Below are positions 132 through 44,229 of a DNA stretch of 64,000 nucleotides, one piece after another. The DNA comes from Cellulomonas chitinilytica (GTDB lineage: Bacteria; Actinomycetota; Actinomycetes; Actinomycetales; Cellulomonadaceae): assembly GCF_016862675.1 (NCBI RefSeq), contig NZ_BONK01000006.1:62001-126000 (forward strand). Reading direction: 5' to 3'. Under the pieces are notes generated by a model. It did no database searches. It was not told the DNA's origin and saw nothing but the letters and a program-made list of their open reading frames with translations. Positions within the stretch are counted from its first letter, which is position 1; every line of letters starts with the position of its first letter. The position numbers and the translations under genes were made by a program.

Positions 132-1703
132 TCAGATCCCCCTGCTCGTTCGTACTGTCGTTGGCTTGTCCTGTCGGTTGTCGCTGGTGCGCGCATGGCG
201 TTGCTCGGCTCGCCACTTCGCATACTCGCGGGCCCGCGACGCGGCGGCGTCGGCGAGTGCCTTGTCGCCGGCGCGCGGCCAGCCGGAACCGTCGTAGGCC
301 CAGGTGCCGATGACCAGCGTCGTCTCTTCGTCGTCTGCCATGAGCTGGGCCTCGAGCGCACGGGTGTCGAGGGGCGTCGCGCGGCGCCTGGCCTCGACGG
401 TCAGGCTCTGGAAGCGCCGACGAGCGCGGCGTAGAGCACCGAGGGTGACCGAGTACCGGCGTGACTTGGTCGAGAAGTGGCCGCGGAAGCCGAGCATCGA
501 GGCCCATCGCCCGAGCAGCGCGTACGGGCTCTGAGCGCACTTGCCGCACAGTCGCGGGTGCCGGTCGCCCGCTCGCTTGTCGCACGCGAAGGGGCAGCCG
601 GCCATGGCGCGAGCGGCGAGGGCTCGGCACGACTCCATGAGGTTCGCCAGGTGGGGAAGAGGGTGCCTCGGGTCGACTCCGGCCGACTTCGTCGAGTACT
701 TCGCCAGGTAGGCCGCAACCTGCTCGGTGGTGATGTGGTCGCCGCCGGCGAAGCCATCGCGAACGATCCTGACGTCCGTCTGGGCCCCGAAGCGCAGGAT
801 CCGCTCGACGTCTCGGTCGTCGAGGGGCGCTGCGGCGCAGCGCACTGTGCTCACGGCGTGACGCACGGCTTCGTGGAGCCTGGCGGCGGCGACGGGTGCA
901 GGAGAGCCCGGACCGTCCGGTCCGTCGATCCGCACGAGAGCGTGGAAGTGGACAAGGCCGCGCGTCTGGAACTCGGCGACCTTGGCGTACTCGAGTCTTG
1001 CGTGGTGCTTGAGATCGTGGTCCCGCACCCCGAGCTCGGCAGCCAGCTGGCGACGCAGCGCGATGGTGAAGCGGCGCCACAGTTCTGGCGCGTGCCACTG
1101 CCAGATGATGGCCGAGTCGGTGTCGTAGCACTCGCGGCACAGCGGAGCGCCGACCCGGGGGTCGTCGGCGTCGTGGTGTGCCCAGCAGGTCAGCCGGCGG
1201 CCGTGCGGGCACCACGCCAACCGGGTGCGCGGGTGGCAGGGCTGCTTTCCGTCGCGGACTCCGTGGACGAGTCCGAACGACGGCGCCGTCAGCGTCACGA
1301 ACAGCAGCGGGCTTGCGTTGACCGTGGCTGGGACGCCCTTGCCACCGTTGAGGCCGGTAGAGATCAGCTCGAACGTGTCGCGCGCGTAGATGCGCGAGCA
1401 CGACGCGCACACCGACTCGCGACGGTTGCCGCACGGCTTGTAGAGCAGACCCAGCGGCTCGTCGGCCGAGCGGAACGTCTCCACGATCTCGCCCGTCCGC
1501 AGATCGACGGTCTCCGATCGTCCGACCAAACGGACCGGGTGTGCGCAGTTGCCGGCCCTGGAGATCGTGTCCGCGAGAGCTGGCATGGTGCCGTCGCTGA
1601 GGCGTCCCATGATGGACTCCACCTCAGCCAGCGCCAGGTGGTCCAGGTCGAGTGGTGCGTCAGGCCCGTGACCTCGAAAGCCGGTGCGAGTTGCCCTCGT
1701 CAT
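132..1703 (-). CDS. repSA: rolling-circle replication initiator of an AICE (RepSA-like)
   Basis: A 523-residue protein of the replication initiator family of Streptomyces integrative elements. It nicks the element's origin to start rolling-circle replication of the excised circle. The HUH metal motif is visible as HFHA at residues 252-255, and candidate nicking tyrosines lie in AAYLAKYSTK (about 331-339). Cysteine pairs near residues 91-102 (CGNRRESVCASC) and 189-192 look like zinc ligands. I chose the ATG at 1703, which overlaps the TGA of the upstream traSA-like gene; a GTG directly before it (1706) gives a protein one residue longer. The overlap implies translational coupling inside the conjugation operon. 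Confidence 0.9.
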   Translation of the reverse strand: MTRATRTGFRGHGPDAPLDLDHLALAEVESIMGRLSDGTMPALADTISRAGNCAHPVRLVGRSETVDLRTGEIVETFRSADEPLGLLYKPCGNRRESVCASCSRIYARDTFELISTGLNGGKGVPATVNASPLLFVTLTAPSFGLVHGVRDGKQPCHPRTRLAWCPHGRRLTCWAHHDADDPRVGAPLCRECYDTDSAIIWQWHAPELWRRFTIALRRQLAAELGVRDHDLKHHARLEYAKVAEFQTRGLVHFHALVRIDGPDGPGSPAPVAAARLHEAVRHAVSTVRCAAAPLDDRDVERILRFGAQTDVRIVRDGFAGGDHITTEQVAAYLAKYSTKSAGVDPRHPLPHLANLMESCRALAARAMAGCPFACDKRAGDRHPRLCGKCAQSPYALLGRWASMLGFRGHFSTKSRRYSVTLGALRRARRRFQSLTVEARRRATPLDTRALEAQLMADDEETTLVIGTWAYDGSGWPRAGDKALADAAASRAREYAKWRAEQRHARTSDNRQDKPTTVRTSRGI

Positions 1704-34868: not shown

Positions 34869-35190
34869 CGGATGACGGACGAATGACTGACGGTGCGGTG
34901 CGGCGGGTCGGGCAGGGGGCGGCCCGCCGCTCGCACGGTCAGGCGCGGGCTCACCCGCTCGTCGTCCCGACCGTGTGGCGGGCGTCCCCGTGGTGCTCGG
35001 CCGGGCGCCCCCGACCACACGAGGACGCCGTCCGTCCGGACGCCGGGCGGGAGCCCGAAGGCTTCCGCGTAGAGACGGTCGAGCGTGAGGAAGCGCTCGA
35101 TGGCGGTGTATCCGGAGTCGACGCAGCCGGCGTCGGGCACGTCGGCGATCCTGCCATTCGAGCAGGCCGTCTCACCATACGAACTGCGTT
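34869..35190. other. non-coding gap with a possible gene remnant
   Basis: 322 bp between the large gene and the sulfur-operon promoter. On the minus strand, about 35190 down to 35017, a frame reads like real protein (YGETACSNGRIADVPDAG, then YTAIERFLTLDRLYAEAFGL) but has no ribosome binding site and dissolves into low-complexity sequence. It could be a decayed gene end; no family recognised. Confidence 0.3.
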
Positions 35191-35219
35191 TTGACCTGCG
35201 GCGTCGTCCTGCGTTTAAT
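35191..35219 (+). promoter_or_regulatory. sigma-70-type promoter of the sulfur operon
   Basis: TTGACC (35191-35196), 17-bp spacer, TTTAAT (35214-35219). This is the clearest housekeeping-type promoter in the window; transcription would start about 35226, just ahead of the riboswitch. Confidence 0.75.
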
Positions 35220-35230
35220 TCCGACTAACA

Positions 35231-35313
35231 AGGTCAAGATTTCCAGCGCGAAGCCCCGGCTTGCTGGACGGCAACCCTCCCGCGCGGCGGGGTGCCCCGG
35301 GTGAGGACCTGGT
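35231..35313 (+). promoter_or_regulatory. SAM-IV-class riboswitch
   Basis: Core segments match the actinobacterial SAM-IV aptamer: an opening GGTCAAG (35232), CCAGCGCGAAGCCCCGGCTT, GCTGG then CGGCAACCCTCC, a short GC hairpin, GGGGTGCCCCGGGTGA, and the closing GACCTGG. The opening GGTC pairs with the closing GACC to form P1. These RNAs bind S-adenosylmethionine and switch off sulfur-assimilation genes when SAM is plentiful. It lies between a strong promoter and a cysteine-containing leader peptide, about 270 bases before the first enzyme gene. Confidence 0.88.
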
Positions 35314-35394
35314 CGTGGACGGACGGTGACGCCCGGACCACGGCAAGCGACGCGGACCGCGCCGGCACTGCCGGTGCACGAGAAGGGACGGAAC

Positions 35395-35460
35395 ATGAGC
35401 GCACACCGCTCCGTGAGCAGCACTCGCACGCTCACGTGTCCGTCCTGTTGTCGCCGCTGA
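35395..35460 (+). CDS. cysteine-containing leader peptide
   Basis: A 21-residue reading frame, MSAHRSVSSTRT then LTCPSCCRR, with a strong GAAGGGACGG upstream of its ATG. Cys occurs at positions 15, 18 and 19 just before the stop, the arrangement of cysteine-responsive attenuator peptides known in mycobacteria and other actinobacteria. Ribosome stalling at the Cys codons when cysteinyl-tRNA is scarce would change folding of the following RNA. It sits between the SAM-IV riboswitch and the first structural gene, so the operon appears to read both SAM and cysteine. Confidence 0.7.
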   Translation: MSAHRSVSSTRTLTCPSCCRR

Positions 35461-35472
35461 CCTGATCAGCGC

Positions 35473-35523
35473 GCCGGCCTCCCCGCCGGCCCCCGCGACG
35501 CCGCGCCCACCCGCAGCGGCGTC
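35473..35523 (+). promoter_or_regulatory. candidate attenuator hairpins after the leader peptide
   Basis: Two GC-rich stems follow the leader stop: GCCGGC-ctcccc-GCCGGC (35473-35490) and GACGCCG...CGGCGTC (35497-35503 with 35517-35523). No T-run follows, so control would be Rho-dependent or at translation. Alternative pairing with the leader region was not computed. Confidence 0.4.
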
Positions 35524-35581
35524 CCTCCGCGCACCCCGTGCGCCCCCTCAGCGACCTCACGCACCGGAACGGACCCTTGCC

Positions 35582-36739
35582 GTGCCCATCCCCCGACACG
35601 TCCACCTCGGCATCGACCTCAGCGACACCGGAGCCCGCGCCGCCGCCTGGCGCGACCACGGTTCCCAGGCCCAGCGCCTCTTCGACCTCGACAAGCTCAC
35701 CGAGCACGTCGCCGTCGCCGAGCGCGGCGCCCTCGACTTCGTCGTGTTCGACGAGTCGTTCGCGCTGCACCCCAGCCGCAACACGACCCTGCAGGGCCGC
35801 CTCGACCCCGCGCTCGTCGCCGCCCGGCTCGCCCCCCGCACCGTCGGGATCGGCCTCGTCGCCCAGCTCGACGCGAGCCTGACCGAGCCCGGGCACGTCG
35901 CGCAGGCCGTCGCGACCATCGACCGCGCGAGCGGCGGCCGCGCCGCCTGGCAGGTCGGCGGCGGTGCCCTCGACGGGCGGACGGTCGACGCCGTCGAGAA
36001 CACGTGGGACGCACCCGCCGCCCGCGAGCTCCCGCGGCCCGTCGACCGTCGGGACCCCCGGTTCGTCGAGGTCGACGGCGTGCACTTCGCCGCCCCGCAG
36101 CCGGTGCGCGCGTCGCGGTCGCCGCAGGGCCGCCCGCCCGTCGTCGTCCGGCTCGACACGACCGGCAGCGCGGTCGGGCACGACCTGGGAGCCGACGCGC
36201 ACGACGTCGACGTCGCCGGGCGCACCGCCGACGTGGTCCGGATCCGGGTCGACGACCGTGCCACCGCGGCCGAGCTGCGCACGCAGGTGCGCGACGCCGC
36301 GGCACGGCACGGCCGCGACCCCGACGCCGTGCGGGTCCTCGTCGACGCGTTCCTGCTGCTCGGCCCCGACGCCGCGAGCGCGCAGGCCCGCCTCGACCTG
36401 CTCACCGAGCTCGGCGACGTGCAGCCGACCGCCGGGTCGCTCGTCGCGCTCGGCACCGCCGTGGACGTCGCGTCGCTGGTCACCGAGTGGTTCGCGCTCG
36501 AGGCCGCCGACGGGTTCACGTTCCGGCCCGCGTCCGTGCACACCGACCTGCCCGGCCTGGTCGACGCCGTCGTGCCGCGGCTGCGCGGCGCCGGGGTGTT
36601 CCGCGACCGGTACCCCCGGACGGCCACGCTGCGCGGCACCCTCGGGATCGCCCGCCCCCCGCGCCGTACGGCCGCGCGAACCGTCGCGGCCGGGGCGCGG
36701 GTCGCCACCGGGGCCGGGCGCTCGGCGGCCGCCCGATGA
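35582..36739 (+). CDS. luciferase-like flavin monooxygenase (DszA/NtaA group)
   Basis: 385 residues from a GTG at 35582. The TIM-barrel luciferase-like pattern is visible: HLGIDLSDTGARAAAWRDHG at the start, FVVFDESFALHPSRNTTL, RLDPALVAARLAPRTVGIGL, the SGGRAAWQVGGG strand turn, and EWFALEAADGFTFRP near the C-terminus. This group uses FMNH2 supplied by a separate reductase to oxidise sulfur- or nitrogen-containing organics. First structural gene behind the SAM-IV riboswitch; its stop overlaps the next start (ATGA). Likely job: opening an S-alkyl amino acid or similar organosulfur compound. Confidence 0.85.
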   Translation: MPIPRHVHLGIDLSDTGARAAAWRDHGSQAQRLFDLDKLTEHVAVAERGALDFVVFDESFALHPSRNTTLQGRLDPALVAARLAPRTVGIGLVAQLDASLTEPGHVAQAVATIDRASGGRAAWQVGGGALDGRTVDAVENTWDAPAARELPRPVDRRDPRFVEVDGVHFAAPQPVRASRSPQGRPPVVVRLDTTGSAVGHDLGADAHDVDVAGRTADVVRIRVDDRATAAELRTQVRDAAARHGRDPDAVRVLVDAFLLLGPDAASAQARLDLLTELGDVQPTAGSLVALGTAVDVASLVTEWFALEAADGFTFRPASVHTDLPGLVDAVVPRLRGAGVFRDRYPRTATLRGTLGIARPPRRTAARTVAAGARVATGAGRSAAAR

Positions 36740-37335
36740 GCGGGACGTCCGCCGTCGTCGCGGGCGCCCGGTTCCGGTCCGTGCCGCAGCACCACCCGAG
36801 CGTGCGCCCGATGCTTGACGAGCTCGCCGTCGAGTACGCCACCCGGTACGCGGACGAGTTCAAGATCGCCGAGCTGCGCGCGGAGCTCGGGCGGTACCCC
36901 GCCCACGAGTTCGCCCCGCCGCGCGGCGAGCTCGTCCTGCTCATCGAGGGTGGCGGGGCCGTCGCCGGCGGCGCGTTCCGCCGTCGGAGCGAGCCCGAGG
37001 TCGGCGACATCGCCCTGTCCACCCGTCCCGGCGGGCGCGACGACCGCGGCGTCCCCGCCGTGCCGACCGCGGAGCTCAAGCGGATCTGGACCCACTCGGC
37101 GCACCGCCGCCGCGGGCTCGCGCGGCGCGTGCTCGCCGAGCTCGAGCGCCGCGCGCTCGCCGCCGGCTACCCGCGGATCTACCTCACCACCGGCCCGCGG
37201 CAGCCCGAGGCGGCCGCGCTGTACGTCGCCACCGGCTACACGCCGCTGTTCGACGCCACCGCCGACCTCGAGCAGCTCGGTCACCTGCCGTTCGAGAAGT
37301 GGCTCGTCCCCCACGTCCTGCCGACAGAGAGCTGA
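36736..37335 (+). CDS. GNAT-family N-acetyltransferase
   Basis: 199 residues. The acetyl-CoA site is visible as IWTHSAHRRRGLARRVLAELE (about residues 115-134, the R/Q-x-x-G-x-G/A type loop), followed by YLTTGPRQPEAAALYVATGYTP, the usual C-terminal GNAT strand and helix. Coupled by ATGA overlap to the upstream monooxygenase. Acetyltransferases occur in comparable operons for S-alkylcysteine use, for example ytmI in Bacillus, where N-acetylation precedes oxidation. That role is inferred from the neighbourhood. Confidence 0.85.
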   Translation: MSGTSAVVAGARFRSVPQHHPSVRPMLDELAVEYATRYADEFKIAELRAELGRYPAHEFAPPRGELVLLIEGGGAVAGGAFRRRSEPEVGDIALSTRPGGRDDRGVPAVPTAELKRIWTHSAHRRRGLARRVLAELERRALAAGYPRIYLTTGPRQPEAAALYVATGYTPLFDATADLEQLGHLPFEKWLVPHVLPTES

Positions 37336-37340
37336 CCGCC

Positions 37341-38408
37341 GTGTCCACCGTCTCCCTGCACCACGAGGAGCCCCGCCTGCTGGTCGGCGAGGCCCCGAGC
37401 CGCCCGACCACCGACGAACCGCGGGTCATCGGCGCACGCCACCCCGGCCGGTGGGTCGCCACCGTCGTCGTCGCCGTGCTCCTCGCGATGGTCCTCAACT
37501 CGCTCGTCACGAACCCCAAGTGGGAGTGGAGCGTCGTCTGGCAGTACCTGACGTGGCCGTCCGTGCTCGAAGGGCTGTGGGGCACCCTGCGCCTCACCGC
37601 AGTCGCCGCGTTCATCGGCTTCGGCCTCGGCACCGTGCTGGCCCTCATGCGGCTGTCCCGGTCGCCGCTGCTGCGCGGCGTCTCGTGGCTGTACACCTGG
37701 GTGTTCCGGTCGGTGCCGCTGATCCTGCAGCTGCTGCTCTGGTACAACCTCGCCTACCTCTACCCGCAGATCACGCTCGGCATCCCGTTCGGCCCGTCGT
37801 TCACCGGGTTCGACACGCTCGACGTCATCGACAAGTTCGGCGCCGCGATCCTCGGCCTCGGGCTGTCGCAGGCGGCGTACTCCGCCGAGATCGTGCGCGC
37901 CGGCATCCTCGGCGTCGACCAGGGCCAGCACGAGGCCGCCGCCGCGCTCGGCCTGCCGCGGTCCGTGCAGCAGCGGCGGATCATCCTGCCGCAGGCCATG
38001 CGGACGATCGTGCCGACGGCCGTGAACGAGATCATCGGCCTGGTCAAGGGCACGTCGGTCGTCTACGTGCTCGCCTACAGCGAGCTGTTCTACATCGTCG
38101 GCGTGATCTACGGCCGCAACCAGCGGGTCGTCCCGCTGCTCGTCGTCGCGGGCATCTGGTACCTCGTCATCACGACCGTGCTGACCGTCATCCAGTTCTA
38201 CGTGGAGCGGCACTACGCGAAGGGGGCGCTGCGACAGCTCCCGCCGACGCCGCTGCAGCGGGCCCGCTGGGGGCTCGGCGTCGCCTGGTCCCGGATCACC
38301 GGGGCACCGCTCCCGTCCGACCTGCCGCCCGGGTACGGGTCGCGGTCGCTCGCGGCCCGCGGCGTGCTCACCCGGACCCGTCGCACCGAGATCGGGGGCG
38401 TGGCATGA
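37341..38408 (+). CDS. polar amino acid ABC transporter, permease
   Basis: 355 residues from the GTG at 37341. At least five hydrophobic segments follow a hydrophilic N-terminus; the His/Glu/Gln/Arg/opine permease pattern is clear (SVLEGLWGTLRLTAVAAFIG, and the EAA loop EAAAALGLPRSVQQRRIILP near residue 200). The long tail after the last membrane segment is hydrophilic. It forms the channel with the next gene's ATPase. In this operon the substrate is probably a sulfur-containing amino acid or derivative, as for cystine-type TcyJ/TcyK systems, but specificity cannot be read from the permease. Confidence 0.88.
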   Translation: MSTVSLHHEEPRLLVGEAPSRPTTDEPRVIGARHPGRWVATVVVAVLLAMVLNSLVTNPKWEWSVVWQYLTWPSVLEGLWGTLRLTAVAAFIGFGLGTVLALMRLSRSPLLRGVSWLYTWVFRSVPLILQLLLWYNLAYLYPQITLGIPFGPSFTGFDTLDVIDKFGAAILGLGLSQAAYSAEIVRAGILGVDQGQHEAAAALGLPRSVQQRRIILPQAMRTIVPTAVNEIIGLVKGTSVVYVLAYSELFYIVGVIYGRNQRVVPLLVVAGIWYLVITTVLTVIQFYVERHYAKGALRQLPPTPLQRARWGLGVAWSRITGAPLPSDLPPGYGSRSLAARGVLTRTRRTEIGGVA

Positions 38409-39172
38409 GCGCCGGGCTGGTCGAGGTCCGTGGCGTCCACAAGGCGTACGGCACGCTCGAGGTGCTCGACGGGATCGACCTGGTGGTCAAGCCCGGCGAG
38501 GTCACCGTGATCCTCGGGCCGTCCGGCTCCGGGAAGTCGACCCTGCTGCGGGCGATCAACCACCTGGAGAAGGTGGACCGCGGGTTCATCGAGGTCGACG
38601 GCGAGCTCATCGGGTACCGCACCCGCTCCGACGGCGCTCTGCAGGAGCTCAAGGAGAAGGAGATCCTGCGCCAGCGCACCCGCATCGGGTTCGTGTTCCA
38701 GAACTTCAACCTCTTCCCGCACCTCACGGCCCTCGAGAACGTCGTCGAGGCACCCGTCTCCGCGCAGGGCCGGCCCCGCGCCGAGGTCGAGGCGGAGGCC
38801 CGTGAGCTGCTGGAACGCGTCGGGCTCGGCGACAAGATCGACGCCTACCCGCGCCAGCTGTCCGGCGGGCAGCAGCAGCGGGTCGCGATCGCCCGGGCGC
38901 TCGCCGTCAAGCCGTCGGTCGTGCTGTTCGACGAGCCGACGTCCGCGCTCGACCCCGAGCTGGTCGGCGAGGTGCTCGACGTGATCCGCGACCTCGCGGC
39001 CACCGGCACGACCCTCGTCGTCGTCACCCACGAGATCGGCTTCGCACGCGAGGTCGCCACGACCGTCGTCTTCATGGACGGCGGGCGGATCGTCGAGCAG
39101 GGCAGCCCCGCCCAGGTGCTCGACGACCCGCAGCAGGAACGCACCCGCGCGTTCCTCGACAAGGTCCTCTGA
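38405..39172 (+). CDS. polar amino acid ABC transporter, ATPase
   Basis: 255 residues. Walker A GPSGSGKS (about 39-46), Q-loop VFQNFNLFPH, signature LSGGQQQRVAIARAL (about 152-166), Walker B VVLFDEPTSALDPE and the switch VTHEIGFAREV are all intact. This is the GlnQ/TcyN type of ATPase that powers amino acid import. A 20-residue insert after Walker A (YRTRSDGALQELKEKEILRQ) is frequent in cystine-type relatives. The ATGA overlap with the permease means fixed stoichiometry. Confidence 0.92.
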   Translation: MSAGLVEVRGVHKAYGTLEVLDGIDLVVKPGEVTVILGPSGSGKSTLLRAINHLEKVDRGFIEVDGELIGYRTRSDGALQELKEKEILRQRTRIGFVFQNFNLFPHLTALENVVEAPVSAQGRPRAEVEAEARELLERVGLGDKIDAYPRQLSGGQQQRVAIARALAVKPSVVLFDEPTSALDPELVGEVLDVIRDLAATGTTLVVVTHEIGFAREVATTVVFMDGGRIVEQGSPAQVLDDPQQERTRAFLDKVL

Positions 39173-39211
39173 CCGTCCCCCCACCCCCACCGAGAGAAGC
39201 GAGAACTCCCC

Positions 39212-40210
39212 GTGAACGTCCCCTTCCGACGCGCCAGGCTCCTCACCGCGATCGCGGTCGTGCCCCTGCTGGCGCTCGCCGCGTGCGCCGGATCGAGCGC
39301 CGACGACGACCCCGCCGCCGACAGCACCCCGAGCAAGGCCGCAGGCCTGGAGATCAGCACCAGCCCCGACCAGGACCGGATCCACACCACGGTCGCGGAC
39401 GACGCCGTCGCCCTCCTGCCGGCCGACGTCAAGGCGTCGGGCGTCTTCAAGGTCGCGACGACGGCCGGTGCGGCGCCGCCGCTCGGGTTCCTCGCGGACG
39501 ACGAGAAGACGCCGATCGGCAACGAGACCGACATCGCCCAGCTCGTCGCCGACGCGCTCGGCCTCAAGCTCGAGCTCGAGCAGAAGGCGTGGGCCGACTG
39601 GCCGCTCGCGCTGCAGTCGGGCGACGTCGACGCCGTCATCTCGAACGTCACCGTGACCGAGGAGCGCAAGGAGCTCTACGACTTCTCGTCGTACCGCAAC
39701 GACCAGCTCGGCTGGATCACGTCGGCGAGCAGCAAGGTCAAGGAGATCAAGGAGCCCAAGGACATCGCGGGCCTCACGGTCGGCGTCAGCTCCGGGACCA
39801 ACCAGGAGAAGATCCTGCTGGCCTGGAACGAGCAGAACATCAAGGACGGCCTCGACCCCATCAAGGGCGGTGAGCCCGAGTACTACGAGGCCTACTCCGA
39901 CGTGCTCCTCGCCGTGCAGTCCGGCCGCCTCGACACCTACGTCGGCCCGAACGCGAGCCTCGCGTACAGCGCGGCGACGGCGCCCGACCAGTTCAAGGTC
40001 GTCGGCACCCTCAACGGCGGCTGGCCGCTGACGGCGCAGATCGCCGTGGCCACGCTCAAGGGGTCCGACCTCGCCCCCGCGGTGACGGCCGCCCTGCAGC
40101 ACGCGTTCGACGACGGCACGTACGCCGACGTCCTGGCGCGCTGGGGCCTGACGGCCGAGGCCATCGAGAAGCCCGAGACGAACCCGCCGGGGCTCCCCAA
40201 GACCGAGTGA
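39212..40210 (+). CDS. ABC transporter substrate-binding lipoprotein
   Basis: 332 residues from a GTG at 39212. A lipoprotein signal with LLALAAC places the lipid-modified Cys at about residue 25. The periplasmic-binding-protein type 2 fold of the amino acid group follows: VATTAGAAPPLGFLADDE, GNETDIAQLVADALGLKLEL, DVDAVISNVTVTEERKELYDF and a C-terminal LAPAVTAALQHAFDDG. It captures the substrate outside the cell for the permease and ATPase just upstream. The gene lies 39 bases after the ATPase with its own ribosome binding site (GAGAGAAGCGAG). Confidence 0.9.
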   Translation: MNVPFRRARLLTAIAVVPLLALAACAGSSADDDPAADSTPSKAAGLEISTSPDQDRIHTTVADDAVALLPADVKASGVFKVATTAGAAPPLGFLADDEKTPIGNETDIAQLVADALGLKLELEQKAWADWPLALQSGDVDAVISNVTVTEERKELYDFSSYRNDQLGWITSASSKVKEIKEPKDIAGLTVGVSSGTNQEKILLAWNEQNIKDGLDPIKGGEPEYYEAYSDVLLAVQSGRLDTYVGPNASLAYSAATAPDQFKVVGTLNGGWPLTAQIAVATLKGSDLAPAVTAALQHAFDDGTYADVLARWGLTAEAIEKPETNPPGLPKTE

Positions 40211-40300
40211 CCCGACCGGTCGCTCGCGGTGGTCGGCCGGGGTCGGGGGACACCCGGCCGACCACCAGTTCTCTTTCCCGTCGTCCCCTTGGAGGAGCCC

Positions 40301-41566
40301 GTGCAGGTCGTGGACCACGTCGTCGTCGGCGGCGGTGTCATGGGCTCGGCGGCGGCCTGGCAGCTCGCGGCCCGCGGGCGTGACGTGCTGCTGCTCGAAC
40401 GCTTCGAGCCCGGGCACGTCCGCGGCGCCTCCCACGGGGCGTCCCGCATCTACCGGACCACGTACGACCGGCCCGAGTACGTGGACCTCGCCCTCGAGGC
40501 GCTCGACCTGTGGCGCTCGCTCGACGACCCGTCCGTCCTCACCCTCAACGGAGGCGTGAGCCACGGCGTCCGGCACGAGGGGGTCGCCGCGTCGTTCGCC
40601 GCCCGCGGCGTGCCGCACGAGTGGCTCACGCCCGCCGCCGCGGGGGAGCGCTGGCCGGGTCTGCGCTTCGAAGGGTCCGTGCTGCACGAGACGTCGACCG
40701 CCGGACGGCTGCACGCCGACCGGGCCGTCGCCGCGCTGCAGGGGTCCGCACGGTCGCACGGTGCCGACGTCCGGCACGAGGTCCAGGTGCACCGGGTCGT
40801 CGCCGACGGGTCCGGTGTCCTGCTCGAGACGTCGACCGGTGACGTCCGGGCGCGGTCGGTCGTCGTCGCCGTCGGGGCGTGGACCGCGGGGCTCGTCGGG
40901 CCGCTGCTCGGCGTCGACCTCGCACCCGCGCTCGTCGTGACCCAGGAGCAGCCTGCGCACTTCGCGGTGCTGCCCGGTGCGCCCGACGAGGACGCGTGGC
41001 CGTCGTTCACCCACCAGCCCCTCGGCACCTACCCGTGGCCGAGCGGCACTTACGGGCTCGCGACGCCCGGTGAGGGCATCAAGGTGGGGTTCCACGGCGT
41101 CGGGCCCGTGACCGACCCCGACCGCCGGTCGTTCACCCCCGAGCCCGGGCAGCTCGCGGAGCTGCAGCGGTACGCCGAGCTCTGGCTGCCCGGTGTCGAC
41201 CCGTCCGCCCCCGCGCCGATCTCGTGCACCTACACGACGACGCCGGACAGCGACTTCGTCCTCGACCGGCGCGGACCCGTGGTCGTGGCCGCCGGGTTCT
41301 CCGGGCACGGGTTCAAGTTCGCACCCGCGATCGGCCGGGTGCTCGCGGACCTGGCGTCCGAGCCCGTCGACGCGCCCGCTCGCGCCGCCGACCCCGCCTT
41401 CGCGCTGGCCCGTCTCGCCGGCGCGCGCCCGACGGGTGGCGGTGCGGCCGGCGCCCGTCCTGCCGGCGCCCGTCCTGCCGGCGCCGCCGTGCGGCCCGTC
41501 GCGTCCGACCGTCCCCCCGTCAGCACCGTCAGCACCGTCAGCACCGTCCCCCAGGAGATCCGATGA
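40301..41566 (+). CDS. sarcosine/N-methyltryptophan-oxidase-like FAD oxidase
   Basis: 421 residues from the GTG at 40301 (GGAGGAG upstream). The N-terminal FAD motif VVVGGGVMGSAAAWQLAARG, the GASHGASRIYRTTY active-site loop, and SCTYTTTPDSDFVLDR with the Cys that holds FAD covalently in monomeric sarcosine oxidase all fit the MSOX/SolA group. AAGFSGHGFKFAPAIGRVLA is the usual C-terminal flavin contact. Such enzymes oxidise secondary amines. Inside this operon it may remove an N-alkyl group from the imported compound. The last 50 residues are a low-complexity repeat tail. Confidence 0.85.
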   Translation: MQVVDHVVVGGGVMGSAAAWQLAARGRDVLLLERFEPGHVRGASHGASRIYRTTYDRPEYVDLALEALDLWRSLDDPSVLTLNGGVSHGVRHEGVAASFAARGVPHEWLTPAAAGERWPGLRFEGSVLHETSTAGRLHADRAVAALQGSARSHGADVRHEVQVHRVVADGSGVLLETSTGDVRARSVVVAVGAWTAGLVGPLLGVDLAPALVVTQEQPAHFAVLPGAPDEDAWPSFTHQPLGTYPWPSGTYGLATPGEGIKVGFHGVGPVTDPDRRSFTPEPGQLAELQRYAELWLPGVDPSAPAPISCTYTTTPDSDFVLDRRGPVVVAAGFSGHGFKFAPAIGRVLADLASEPVDAPARAADPAFALARLAGARPTGGGAAGARPAGARPAGAAVRPVASDRPPVSTVSTVSTVPQEIR

Positions 41567-42759
41567 CCGACCCCCGTCCCGTCCCGCTGTCCGTGCTCGA
41601 CCTGGCCCCGGTGCGGGCCGGCGGCACGGGCGCGGAGGCGCTGCGTGACGCCGTCGCCCGTGCCCAGCTCGTCGAGCGGCTGGGGTACCACCGCGTCTGG
41701 TTCGCCGAGCACCACCTGGCCCCGGGGGTCGCGTCGGCGGCGCCGGGGGTGCTCGCGGCGCTCGTCGCGTCGGCCACGTCGACCATCCGGGTCGGGTCCG
41801 CGGCGGTGCTGCTCGGGTCGACGAGCCCGGTGGTCGCCGCCGAGCAGTTCGGGACGGTGGTGGCCCTGCACCCCGGGCGCGTGGACCTCGGCCTGGGGCG
41901 GGCGTCGTTCCCGCCGCCGTCCGTCGCGGGCGGCGCCGACGCGCCCGCGCCCCGCCGCCCGCGGTCCGAGCCGACACCCGAGCGGGTCGTCGACGGGCTG
42001 CTCGTCCCGGCGACGCCCCCGGTGTCGTTCGGGGAGGGGCCGCTGCTCGAGCGGATCCTCGCCCAGCACCGTTTCGTCGGGGCCGGTCGTACGCCGGGCG
42101 GGTTCGCGGCCGAGCTCTCGACCGTGCTCGACGTGGTCCGCGGCACCGCCCGGACGGACGCCGACCGAGCCGTGTCGGTCCCCGCCGCGCAGGGTGCGGA
42201 CCTTGCCCTGTGGGTCCTCGCGTCCAGCGGCGGCGAGAGCGCCCGGGTGGCCGGGGAGCTCGGGCTGCCGCTCGGGGCGAACTACCACGTGAGCCCGTCG
42301 ACGGTGCTGGAGACGGTCGAGCAGTACCGCGCGGCGTTCCGCCCGGGAGTCCTCGACGAGCCGTACGTGGTGGTCTCGGCCGACGTGCTCGCCGCCGACA
42401 CCGCCGCACGCGCGCATGAGCTCGCGGACCCGTTCGCCGAGTGGGTCCTGTCGATCCGCCGCGGCGAGGGCGCGATCCCGTACCCGGCGCCGGGCACGAC
42501 GACCCGGTGGGAGGACCGCCCGGCGGCCGAGCGGGACCTGGTGCGCGACCGCGTCGACACCCGCTTCGTCGGGACGCCCGACGAAGTCGCCTCCGGCCTG
42601 TCCATCCTGGCCCGTGTCACCGGCGCCGACGAGCTCCTGCTCACCACCATCACCCACGACCCGGCGGACACGGCGCGCTCCTACGAGCTCGTCGCCGCCA
42701 CCTGGCCGGCCACCGCCACCCCCGCCCTCACCCCCACCCTGGCGACCGCCTCGGCCTGA
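41563..42759 (+). CDS. second luciferase-like monooxygenase
   Basis: 398 residues, start overlapping the previous stop. The N-terminus LSVLDLAPVRAGGTGAEALR, then WFAEHHLAP, IRVGSAAVLLGSTSPVVAAE, FGTVVALHPGRVDLGLGRA define the MsnO8/YtmO-like subgroup (actinobacterial LLM class with the EHH motif). C-terminal DTRFVGTPDEVASGL and ADELLLTTITHDP are typical. With the first LLM gene at the other end of the operon, it implies two successive oxygenations, matching the two-monooxygenase pattern of S-alkylcysteine operons. The preceding DNA has small AGCACCGTC tandem repeats. Confidence 0.88.
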   Translation: MTDPRPVPLSVLDLAPVRAGGTGAEALRDAVARAQLVERLGYHRVWFAEHHLAPGVASAAPGVLAALVASATSTIRVGSAAVLLGSTSPVVAAEQFGTVVALHPGRVDLGLGRASFPPPSVAGGADAPAPRRPRSEPTPERVVDGLLVPATPPVSFGEGPLLERILAQHRFVGAGRTPGGFAAELSTVLDVVRGTARTDADRAVSVPAAQGADLALWVLASSGGESARVAGELGLPLGANYHVSPSTVLETVEQYRAAFRPGVLDEPYVVVSADVLAADTAARAHELADPFAEWVLSIRRGEGAIPYPAPGTTTRWEDRPAAERDLVRDRVDTRFVGTPDEVASGLSILARVTGADELLLTTITHDPADTARSYELVAATWPATATPALTPTLATASA

Positions 42760-42796: not shown

Positions 42797-42854
42797 TTCG
42801 GGGTGAGAACGGCACTTCAGAGTGCCGTTCTCACCCCGAACTGCCGTTCTCACC
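42797..42854. repeat. long palindrome with a third partial copy
   Basis: A perfect 20-bp inverted repeat with a 4-base loop: arm TTCGGGGTGAGAACGGCACT (42797-42816), loop TCAG, complementary arm 42821-42840, followed directly by another copy of the right arm's core (TGCCGTTCTCACC, 42842-42854). It ends the sulfur operon and may act as terminator, but the sequence also looks like a mobile palindromic repeat. Confidence 0.8.
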
Positions 42855-42950: not shown

Positions 42951-43535
42951 TCAGATCGAGTAGTCGTCGCCGATCTGGTGGTACGTGCGGTCGTGGTAGA
43001 CGAGCGGCGTCACGTCGTGGGTCCCGTGGGACAGCGCCCGCACGGAGATGAGGTACGACCCCCCGACGGGCGTGCGCTGCACGACCCGCCCCCGCACCCA
43101 CGACACGGCCCCGTCGATCACGGGCTCGCCGGTGGGCAGCGCGGACCAGCCGCCGGCGGCGAACCGGTCGATGCCGTGCGTCGCGAACCGGGCGGACACG
43201 TCGTCCTGCGACCCGGACAGGAAGCTGATCGCGAGCGTCCGGGCCCGGGACACCGCGGGCCAGGACGACGACGTCGACGCGAGCGAGAACGCGAGCAGCG
43301 GCGGTTCGGCCGACACGGAGATGACGGACGTCGCCGTGAACCCGACGAGCCGCACGGGGTGCTCGGCCCCCTCGAACGAGTCGAGGCCCGGCTCCTGCGC
43401 GTCGTCGACGAGCGCGACCACCGCGACACCCGCGGGGTGCCGGCGGAACACCTCCTTGTACTCGTCGGGCGTGAGCTGCTGCTCGTCCTGCTGTGCGAGG
43501 TCGGCGTCGAGGGCGCGCAGGATCTCGGCGGTCAC
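42951..43535 (-). CDS. flavin reductase (FMN-binding, HpaC/DIM6 type)
   Basis: 194 residues from a GTG at 43535 overlapping the FMN reductase stop. The flavin reductase pattern is clear: YKEVFRRHPAGVAVVALVDD, VGFTATSVISVSAEPPLLAF (the G-x-T-x-x-S motif), SFLSGSQDDVSARFA, and C-terminal PLVYHDRTYHQIGDDY. Such enzymes reduce FMN or FAD with NAD(P)H for two-component monooxygenases. Being under the same class of riboswitch as the two luciferase-like enzymes, it is the probable electron supplier for them. Confidence 0.88.
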   Translation of the reverse strand: MTAEILRALDADLAQQDEQQLTPDEYKEVFRRHPAGVAVVALVDDAQEPGLDSFEGAEHPVRLVGFTATSVISVSAEPPLLAFSLASTSSSWPAVSRARTLAISFLSGSQDDVSARFATHGIDRFAAGGWSALPTGEPVIDGAVSWVRGRVVQRTPVGGSYLISVRALSHGTHDVTPLVYHDRTYHQIGDDYSI

Positions 43536-44095
43536 CGGAGCACCTCCGCGAGGGTCGCGACGCCGCCGAGGGAGCGGCGCAGCGGCTCGGCGGCCCGGTC
43601 GAGCCAGCGGTCGACGGCGGGGTCGAGGTCGGCCAGGTCCGCCTCCGTGACGGTGAACGACCGGGCGGGCACGGTCGCGCCGAGCTCCACGAGCAGGGGG
43701 CGCAGGTGCACCTCGCCGACGAGCGCGTGCGCGGGGTTGCCGGACACCACGACGGGCACCGCCGTGACACCCGCGAGGCCGTCCGGGCCGTAGGCGTCGA
43801 GGAACGACTTGAGCAGCCCGGTGTACGACGCCTTGTAGACGGGCGTCGCGACGAGCAGCACGTCCGCGGCGGCGACGAGCCGGAGCGCCTCGTCGACCGC
43901 GGGCCGCTCGGCCGCGAAGAGCTGCGGCGCGAGGTCGGCGAGGTCGACGGTCGCGAACGGCACGGGCTCGTCGAGCGGGACGGGGGCGAGCGCGGGACCC
44001 AGCCGCTGCGCGAGGTGCTCGGCGGCGGCGCGGGTGCGCGACCCGGGTCGGGGGTTGCCGACCAGCGCCACGACGGACGGATGGGGGTGGACCAC
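43532..44095 (-). CDS. NADPH-dependent FMN reductase (SsuE/MsuE-like)
   Basis: 187 residues. The flavodoxin-like fold shows VALVGNPRPGSRTRAAAEHL at the N-terminus (the phosphate loop), ADVLLVATPVYKASYTGLLK (the T-P-V-Y-K-A motif of SsuE) and VPVVVSGNPAHALV. It provides FMNH2 to sulfonate or organosulfur monooxygenases. The start is a GTG at 44095 with AAGGAG seven bases upstream, directly behind the second SAM-IV riboswitch. Two different flavin reductases in tandem suggest that two monooxygenases with different flavin handling are served. Confidence 0.9.
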   Translation of the reverse strand: MVHPHPSVVALVGNPRPGSRTRAAAEHLAQRLGPALAPVPLDEPVPFATVDLADLAPQLFAAERPAVDEALRLVAAADVLLVATPVYKASYTGLLKSFLDAYGPDGLAGVTAVPVVVSGNPAHALVGEVHLRPLLVELGATVPARSFTVTEADLADLDPAVDRWLDRAAEPLRRSLGGVATLAEVLR

Positions 44096-44147
44096 GGTGC
44101 AGCTCCTTCACGATCACGAGTTGCCGGCACCCCCCGGTGGGACGCCG

Positions 44148-44229
44148 ACCAGGTCATCTCCCGGAGCACCCCGTCGTGACAGGGGTTGCTGACCAGCGAG
44201 CCGGGGCTTCGCGCTGGTGCTCGTGACCT
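44148..44229 (-). promoter_or_regulatory. second SAM-IV-class riboswitch
   Basis: On the minus strand the same blocks as at 35231 appear: GGTCACGAGCACCAGCGCGA, AGCCCCGGCTCGCTGG, TCAGCAACCCCTG, a short hairpin, GGGGTGCTCCGGGAGATGACC and CTGG. P1 pairs GGTC with GACC. It precedes the FMN reductase start by about 55 bases, without a leader peptide. Its presence puts the flavin reductases and the organosulfur operon under one signal. Confidence 0.87.

Follow-up and report, generated by a model that had tools for sequence, protein, structure and literature searches.

The leader of a putative operon of Cellulomonas chitinilytica carries two known kinds of sensor in tandem, a SAM-IV riboswitch aptamer and, directly behind it, a short upstream open reading frame (uORF) that ends in cysteine (Cys) codons, and this pairing was found in 32 of 224 SAM-IV loci, 19 from a first set of related genomes and 13 from a class-wide set. 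The 32 uORFs span eight families, with 18 of them in the family of C. chitinilytica itself, and most of them stand before genes for LLM-class monooxygenases. Judging from the arrangement of its parts, the leader probably senses sulfur supply through two inputs, with SAM-IV governing the uORF and the speed of the ribosome at the Cys codons governing the operon. The tandem was located in a stretch of 64,000 nucleotides (contig NZ_BONK01000006.1, positions 62,001 to 126,000), hereafter the window, whose coordinates are used throughout (Table 1).

Table 1. Features of the tandem leader and its neighborhood in the window.
Feature	Position	Strand	Basis or remark
Promoter-like TTGACC-N17-TTTAAT, directly 5' of the aptamer	35191..35219	+	By eye; both hexamers present in L280; weak
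SAM-IV riboswitch aptamer	35232..35355	+	Rfam RF00634, full-length match to model 1-116
GC-rich hairpin in the aptamer-SD interval	35359..35377	+	Predicted stem
Shine-Dalgarno (SD) sequence AAGGGA of the uORF	35383..35388	+	Sequence; present in L280 too
Cys leader ORF MSAHRSVSSTRTLTCPSCCRR, 21 codons	35395..35460	+	ATG 35395, TGA 35458-35460; translation predicted from sequence
Candidate regulatory Cys codons TGT-CCG-TCC-TGT-TGT	35437..35451	+	All Cys codons TGT
C-rich, G-poor spacer with hairpins, 121 nt, 66 C/32 G	35461..35581	+	Candidate Rho loading region
Probable ribosome binding site of the first gene, GGAACGGA	35566..35573	+	Sequence
LLM-class flavin monooxygenase, first gene of the putative controlled operon	35582..36739	+	Pfam Bac_luciferase above cut-off
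GNAT acetyltransferase, amino-acid-type ABC transporter (permease, ATPase, binding protein), FAD oxidoreductase	36742..41566	+	Rest of the putative operon
Second LLM oxidoreductase, MsnO8 family	41563..42759	+	TIGR03558 above cut-off (scanned from 41566)
FMN reductase gene	43532..44095	-	Directly behind the second SAM-IV aptamer
Second SAM-IV aptamer	44112..44228	-	16 nt 5' of the FMN reductase gene

A preliminary description of this DNA had placed a 21-codon frame with a ribosome binding site and a Cys-rich end behind a SAM-IV riboswitch. The frame and its SD were found exactly as claimed, and the aptamer ahead of it was recovered at full length by Rfam with 83.4 bits, above the gathering score of 38 that marks SAM-IV membership; its P1 stem closes inside the matched interval and not at its two ends. 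The ATG of the uORF lies 39 nt past the end of the aptamer. Its Cys codons are nos. 15, 18 and 19 (35437-35439, 35446-35448 and 35449-35451), each of them TGT, so that Cys makes up three of the last seven codons, a clustering within a short ORF of the kind that marks a Cys-responsive leader. The promoter-like sequence of Table 1 was recognized by eye, and a formal consensus scan of positions 35050-35700 reported no promoter. Short hairpins of differing sequence were seen by eye at the aptamer-SD interval in most of 19 uORF-type loci; the aptamer with its linker (35232-35410) folded no better than shuffled sequences (z 0.66). A fixed DNA pattern of the Cys end, sought across the C. chitinilytica genome, gave 0 matches.

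From their order and common strand, the genes that follow the first LLM gene would putatively share an operon with it. The best NCBIfam match of this LLM gene is the NtaA/DmoA family and those of the ATPase and permease of the ABC transporter are cystine transporters, all under cut-off, and by its gene content the cluster looks like one for organosulfur uptake and desulfurization. The motif AACGGA, found downstream of the uORF in 12 of 22 leaders, lies inside the gene in one of these. At the second SAM-IV aptamer of the window a Cys uORF was looked for and none was found. As a separate observation, a long palindrome without mismatches, GGGGTGAGAACGGCACT-TCAG-AGTGCCGTTCTCACCCC, lies between convergent genes at 42800-42854, and a further, partial copy of the arm comes after it.

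The recurrence of the tandem was analyzed in SAM-IV loci, which like the other loci compared are designated here by L numbers. Of 58 related genomes, counting the window's own, 47 contain SAM-IV, with 117 matches in all, four of which belong to C. chitinilytica. All 117 were taken with their flanks and grouped by the first downstream gene, which could be called in 114. In the LLM group, 17 of the 20 loci have a uORF with SD and ATG starting 13-44 nt 3' of the aptamer, and all 17 of these uORFs, listed without asking for Cys, end in Cys, with 2-4 Cys among their last 14 residues (examples are MSTDGQPAATADGLARLSSCCPGALSTCCR, MSMRSTDGDTRATRLDMCCRSMCTDESCR and MSRTVQAPWAPSAPALPTTAAAPGGRCCCRR). Of the other three members, L061 has a Cys ORF that lacks a clear SD, and L004 and L100 are short-leader paralogues with no uORF. 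A class-wide search detected SAM-IV in 150 of 246 genomes, and from it we assembled a set of 107 further loci, 27 returned by the search and 80 hand-chosen from part of the matches listed, with more existing beyond that list, so that frequencies in this set do not amount to a survey; 13 of the 107 carry an SD-led Cys uORF, such as MCIRRMCCR, MRASLHPLTRCCCR, MCCCCRMTRR, MCCCRMTSR and MKICCCTRTVS. The count of 32 follows a single rule, namely an SD with ATG, at least two Cys in the last 14 residues and a start at most 60 nt after the aptamer, and it may be low, because some uORFs that fail the two-Cys rule resemble a known kind of leader, for example ERRHVDLLRVSSALCRR in L183.

Starting from the protein instead, a search of 40 genomes of the genus at E 1e-20 recovered the LLM monooxygenase in 17, and eight LLM loci were examined for Rfam families and Cys uORFs. 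SAM-IV and a Cys uORF occur together in three of the eight (L115, L118 and L128), and SAM-IV alone in two (L137 and L138). L136, the locus of an LLM paralogue in the C. chitinilytica genome (C7; 891-996, +), has a SAM-I-like aptamer scoring 42.5 bits against a gathering score of 44.4 and lacks a Cys uORF; at L113 (genome G030; 59% identity) and L126 (genome G034) the stretch scanned contained no SAM-IV aptamer and no Cys uORF. In a side observation, five loci (L073, L077, L080, L082 and L089) contain back-to-back SAM-IV pairs 203-234 nt apart, of which one aptamer faces a Cys uORF and the other an FMN reductase-like gene. The spacers between Cys uORF and LLM gene in L080 and L082 hold an inverted repeat around GGCCGAGATAGGACC...GGTCCGATCTCGG, which may be a mobile palindromic repeat.

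An ORF of 66 nt in a long leader could arise by chance, leaving the SAM-IV riboswitch alone to matter, and we regard this explanation as close to negligible in view of the shuffles, the spread over eight families, the codon bias described below and the presence of the uORF in the nearest relative. Across 100 dinucleotide shuffles of the downstream DNA, Cys uORFs numbered 0.35 on average and 3 at most, as against the 32 seen, although related genomes are not independent and the 32 loci represent fewer than 32 events. When short ORFs with SD and ATG were collected regardless of Cys, 32 of 48 were Cys-ended, versus 7% in shuffles. Cys accounts for 8.35% of the residues of these 48 ORFs, compared with 0.52% in 28 genes of the window, and its share is 2.9 times that of the other frames of the same DNA; Cys is not alone in this, as Met (5.3 times), Ile (2.4 times) and Thr (1.8 times) exceed the other frames too. 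Judged by these sequence statistics, the occurrence of a Cys uORF behind a SAM-IV aptamer is not a matter of chance. In column comparisons within close groups, Cys positions were kept in 41 of 53 cases and other columns in 288 of 394, a difference that is not significant, so that recurrence and codon choice, and not per-site rates, carry the argument.

The nearest named relative is L280, from Cellulomonas sp. MAG BIN39, the sole relative returned by the LLM-protein scan that retrieved it, whose LLM protein is 89% identical in the best segment. Its uORF shares 63 of 66 bases with that of the window, with one amino-acid change (A3D), 0 indels and all three TGT codons present. Conservation of the Cys codons had been proposed as a check in the preliminary description, and it turned out favorably, with the three codons intact in L280 and Cys uORFs recurring among relatives. 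The aptamer is identical at 121 of 124 bases and the start of the main gene at 56 of 59, and the spacer of L280 has 14 bases inserted and 3 missing with respect to the window. Because conservation of the uORF does not exceed that of the gene start, this close pair shows the presence of the uORF rather than strong constraint on it.

The uORFs of the 32 loci start at a median of 34 nt 3' of the aptamer, and in the cysteine-desulfurase-like group, whose genes are controlled directly, the gene starts at a median of 39 nt behind SAM-IV (31 of 40, hand-picked values). Since the uORF thus begins about where SAM-IV normally acts, its position suggests that the direct target of the aptamer is the uORF. 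In 26 of the 32 uORFs the distance between the last Cys codon and the stop is 0-3 codons. The gene behind the tandem was scanned in seven loci besides the window, and in five of them (L139, L147, L187, L214 and L241), from three families all outside the genus, it encodes a bifunctional O-acetylhomoserine/O-acetylserine sulfhydrylase above the curated cut-off. A MetQ-like protein stands behind the tandem in L101, where the uORF begins 202 nt past the aptamer and is excluded from the 32, and an ABC binding protein does so in L232. As a separate matter, in SAM-IV cluster 0 (for example L023, 1650-3101) SufS-like cysteine desulfurases lie directly behind SAM-IV, and by eye their proteins often have Cys within the first ~10-12 residues (MTTITELFACADE, MTVIAERLSCASV); this early Cys is possibly an in-gene Cys sensor.

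The choice of Cys codon distinguishes the uORFs from the genes around them. In 22 SAM-IV uORFs, selected for at least two Cys and not for the codon, we counted 51 TGT and 15 TGC, compared with 35 TGT and 380 TGC in 185 genes of the same loci (odds ratio 37) and with 1 TGT and 54 TGC in 28 genes of the window. The bias is not a general drift to T, because the other C- or T-ending codons of the same 22 uORFs end mostly in C (323 C vs 22 T). It is weaker in the 13 class-wide uORFs, with 23 TGT vs 10 TGC and 37 T and 132 C among the other such codons. Before a non-Cys codon the 32 uORFs use 51 TGT and 14 TGC, and before another Cys 17 and 9, so that the preference for TGT is slightly stronger in the former position. 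Sequence context was considered as a cause of the bias and rejected, as TGT before C makes up only 9 of 92 in genes. The known Cys-leader family NF042934, which 13 of 40 genomes in the genus contain above cut-off, uses 23 TGT and 5 TGC across 17 of the 30 loci returned, these being the 13 above cut-off and four weaker ones; the remaining 13, all weaker, were excluded. Such genomes presumably have a single tRNA-Cys isoacceptor, and our guess is that the bias is due to wobble reading by this tRNA.

Two observations on other leaders belong here. A known-type leader, LTERRAVDLRRVASALCR, is found in L248 (C13:17985-18035 of the C. chitinilytica genome) and in L246-L261, and its signature Cys is TGT in the loci read. 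On contig C3 of the same genome, L276 has at ~851-907 (+) a candidate Cys leader, MCAGIADPCMCCCCPRID, with no obvious SD, 5' of a same-strand match to NIR_SIR (sulfite/nitrite reductase), which uses TGC five times and TGT last. The TGT rule is thus not absolute, as MCAGIADPCMCCCCPRID is mostly TGC.

Strong preference for TGT would also be expected if the end TGT-CGC-TGA were a site in the RNA, bound by a protein or another RNA, with the reading of Cys incidental. CGC or CGT follows the last Cys in 18 of 22 uORFs and 42 of the 45 Cys codons that precede a C are TGT, as this explanation would have it; we nevertheless judge it very unlikely, because TGY occurs 103 times in frame versus 53 and 18 times in the other frames of 48 uORFs, the number (2-4) and spacing of the Cys codons vary, as do the ends (CCR, CRCR, CCCRR, CC), and TGC is accepted at 23 of the 91 Cys codons of the 32 uORFs. 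The Cys-rich C-termini could instead belong to a small peptide acting in trans, for example in metal or thiol binding, and PMC12810186 describes a mycobacterial riboswitch-controlled small ORF of unknown function. As beyond the Cys end both the length (9-56 residues) and the sequence of the peptides differ between groups, we consider a function in trans very unlikely as well.

With respect to the step downstream of the uORF, the first 100 nt of the window spacer have a C-G skew of 0.37, at the 99.5th percentile of the 100-nt windows of this DNA, and over 19 loci the mean spacer skew (100 nt) is 0.24, whereas coding DNA gave 0.01 and the DNA 5' of the aptamer 0.00. As a Rho signal the C-richness is suggestive only, because among 18 upstream regions of the window, with a mean skew of 0.07, two others are also C-rich (0.29 and 0.25). 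A terminator scan of positions 35050-35700 found no site downstream of the aptamer start and a single match, at 35197-35213, 5' of the aptamer. A C-rich, G-poor stretch behind the uORF together with no intrinsic terminator is the sequence picture of a Rho attenuator, though not a specific one, and as far as composition goes it favors Rho for the downstream step. Rho has already been proposed, weakly, for mycobacterial cys leaders (PMC1262725).

A different division of labor would have the two controls stacked but independent, with SAM-IV acting on the entire leader at the level of transcription and the Cys uORF later unmasking the main ribosome binding site (RBS), so that SAM would not gate translation of the uORF. 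PMC13236596 presents RBS unmasking as the mode of translation attenuation and places cysteine genes of M. smegmatis under such attenuation, and in the window TCAGCG at 35548-35553, 34 nt 5' of the gene, is complementary to CGCTGA, with which the uORF closes (35455-35460), and is unchanged in L280, a match of six bases only. On the other hand, a second TCAGCG at 35466 is altered in L280, and in 22 loci we saw no pairing partner of the uORF end that kept a fixed position. The region spanning the spacer and the gene start (35461-35620) is more stably folded than shuffled sequences (z -2.74). In a partition-function test of 13 loci, opening the main RBS cost 6.88 kcal/mol in the free leader, 6.84 when a ribosome was stalled on the last Cys codon and 7.07 for control footprints, so that stalling did not open it in this test; the result lends no support to unmasking by a stalled ribosome, folding being a weak test. 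Taken with these findings, independent stacking is unlikely. As for the preliminary idea of a SAM aptamer and a Cys-codon attenuator joined on one mRNA, its first half holds, in that a Cys-type ORF behind SAM-IV recurs across families before sulfur genes, and the word attenuator goes beyond the data, as the scan up to 35700 found no terminator-like site past the aptamer start and folding gives RBS unmasking no support.

SAM-IV riboswitches, actinobacterial Cys leader peptides and riboswitch-plus-uORF leaders are each known already. The window aptamer is like other members of RF00634 in being a full-length, high-scoring match and unlike them in directly preceding a Cys leader ORF instead of an enzyme gene. 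With the actinobacterial Cys leaders (NCBIfam NF042933, NF042934 and NF042936) the window uORF shares the short ORF, the Cys codons near the stop and the sulfur genes behind, and the TGT bias is common to window-type uORFs and the family present in the genus. It differs from them in being SD-led behind an aptamer, not leaderless, and in its peptide, which gave 0 NCBIfam families up to E 10 and hence no match to any of the three. Two of eight other SAM-IV uORF peptides scanned against NCBIfam, those of L055 and L220, reach the cut-off of NF042934; they have no SD-ATG and are not among the 32. The uORF of L233 matches NF042936 under cut-off. Canestrari et al. are said to have described, in 2020, leaderless poly-Cys short ORFs as attenuators. 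In a leaderless ORF the mRNA begins with the start codon, whereas the SD-led uORF of the window would begin 39 nt past a 124-nt aptamer, given the predicted transcript start.

Dual RNA control of a sulfur operon has a precedent in the clostridial ubiG operon, where S-box and T-box control read SAM and Cys-tRNA through RNA. The window leader would likewise bring SAM and Cys-tRNA inputs to one sulfur operon via RNA, but ubiG uses a T-box and an antisense S-box RNA and no leader peptide. Candidate actinobacterial Cys leader peptides appear in PMC1262725. Mycobacterium has riboswitch-linked uORFs at B12/ppe2 and metE (PMC11260477) and at Mbox/pe20 (PMC12810186), which, in the accessible portions of these papers, similarly combine a riboswitch and a small ORF in one leader and are translational platforms with Rho shown or proposed; those portions describe no amino-acid-sensor role for them, whereas the window uORF carries its own likely input. 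According to PMC7270179, a Xanthomonas SAM-I riboswitch responds to uncharged initiator tRNA, and it is thus comparable in joining a SAM riboswitch with a second, translation-linked input, which there is initiator tRNA and in the window a Cys uORF. A literature search for the pairing of SAM-IV with a following Cys uORF found none, most subscription papers, including the main paper on Cys leaders, being outside its reach. What appears to be new is the recurrent pairing of two known sensors together with the codon bias, for which we found no description in the literature searched.

In the proposed two-input leader, transcription would start just 5' of the aptamer, and SAM binding would set either ribosome entry into the uORF or the continuation of transcription, with SAM-IV assumed, by analogy, to be an OFF switch. 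When Cys-tRNA is low, the ribosome would slow at the terminal TGT codons and remain over the uORF end; when Cys is high, it would finish and depart, exposing the C-rich spacer, and Rho or RNA folding would lower expression. Activity of the operon would then be highest under a shortage of both SAM and cysteine. We extend this scheme beyond the window tentatively: in actinomycetes, SAM-IV with a Cys uORF might be a recurring RNA logic element with two inputs, turning sulfur-supply genes on only if SAM and Cys-tRNA are both low. Its Cys sensor would be tuned by selection of TGT over TGC, in genomes where Cys codons are almost always TGC, so that the single tRNA-Cys has to read a wobble codon, with slower decoding and greater sensitivity to its charging.

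Cysteine and SAM are two end products of sulfur assimilation, and two inputs make sense before genes such as that of a sulfhydrylase named for making homocysteine and cysteine. The TGT bias offers a simple, testable handle on synonymous-codon tuning of attenuators with one tRNA isoacceptor. If the proposal is true, the joining of an aptamer and a reading of ribosome speed in one leader would be a compact natural logic gate.
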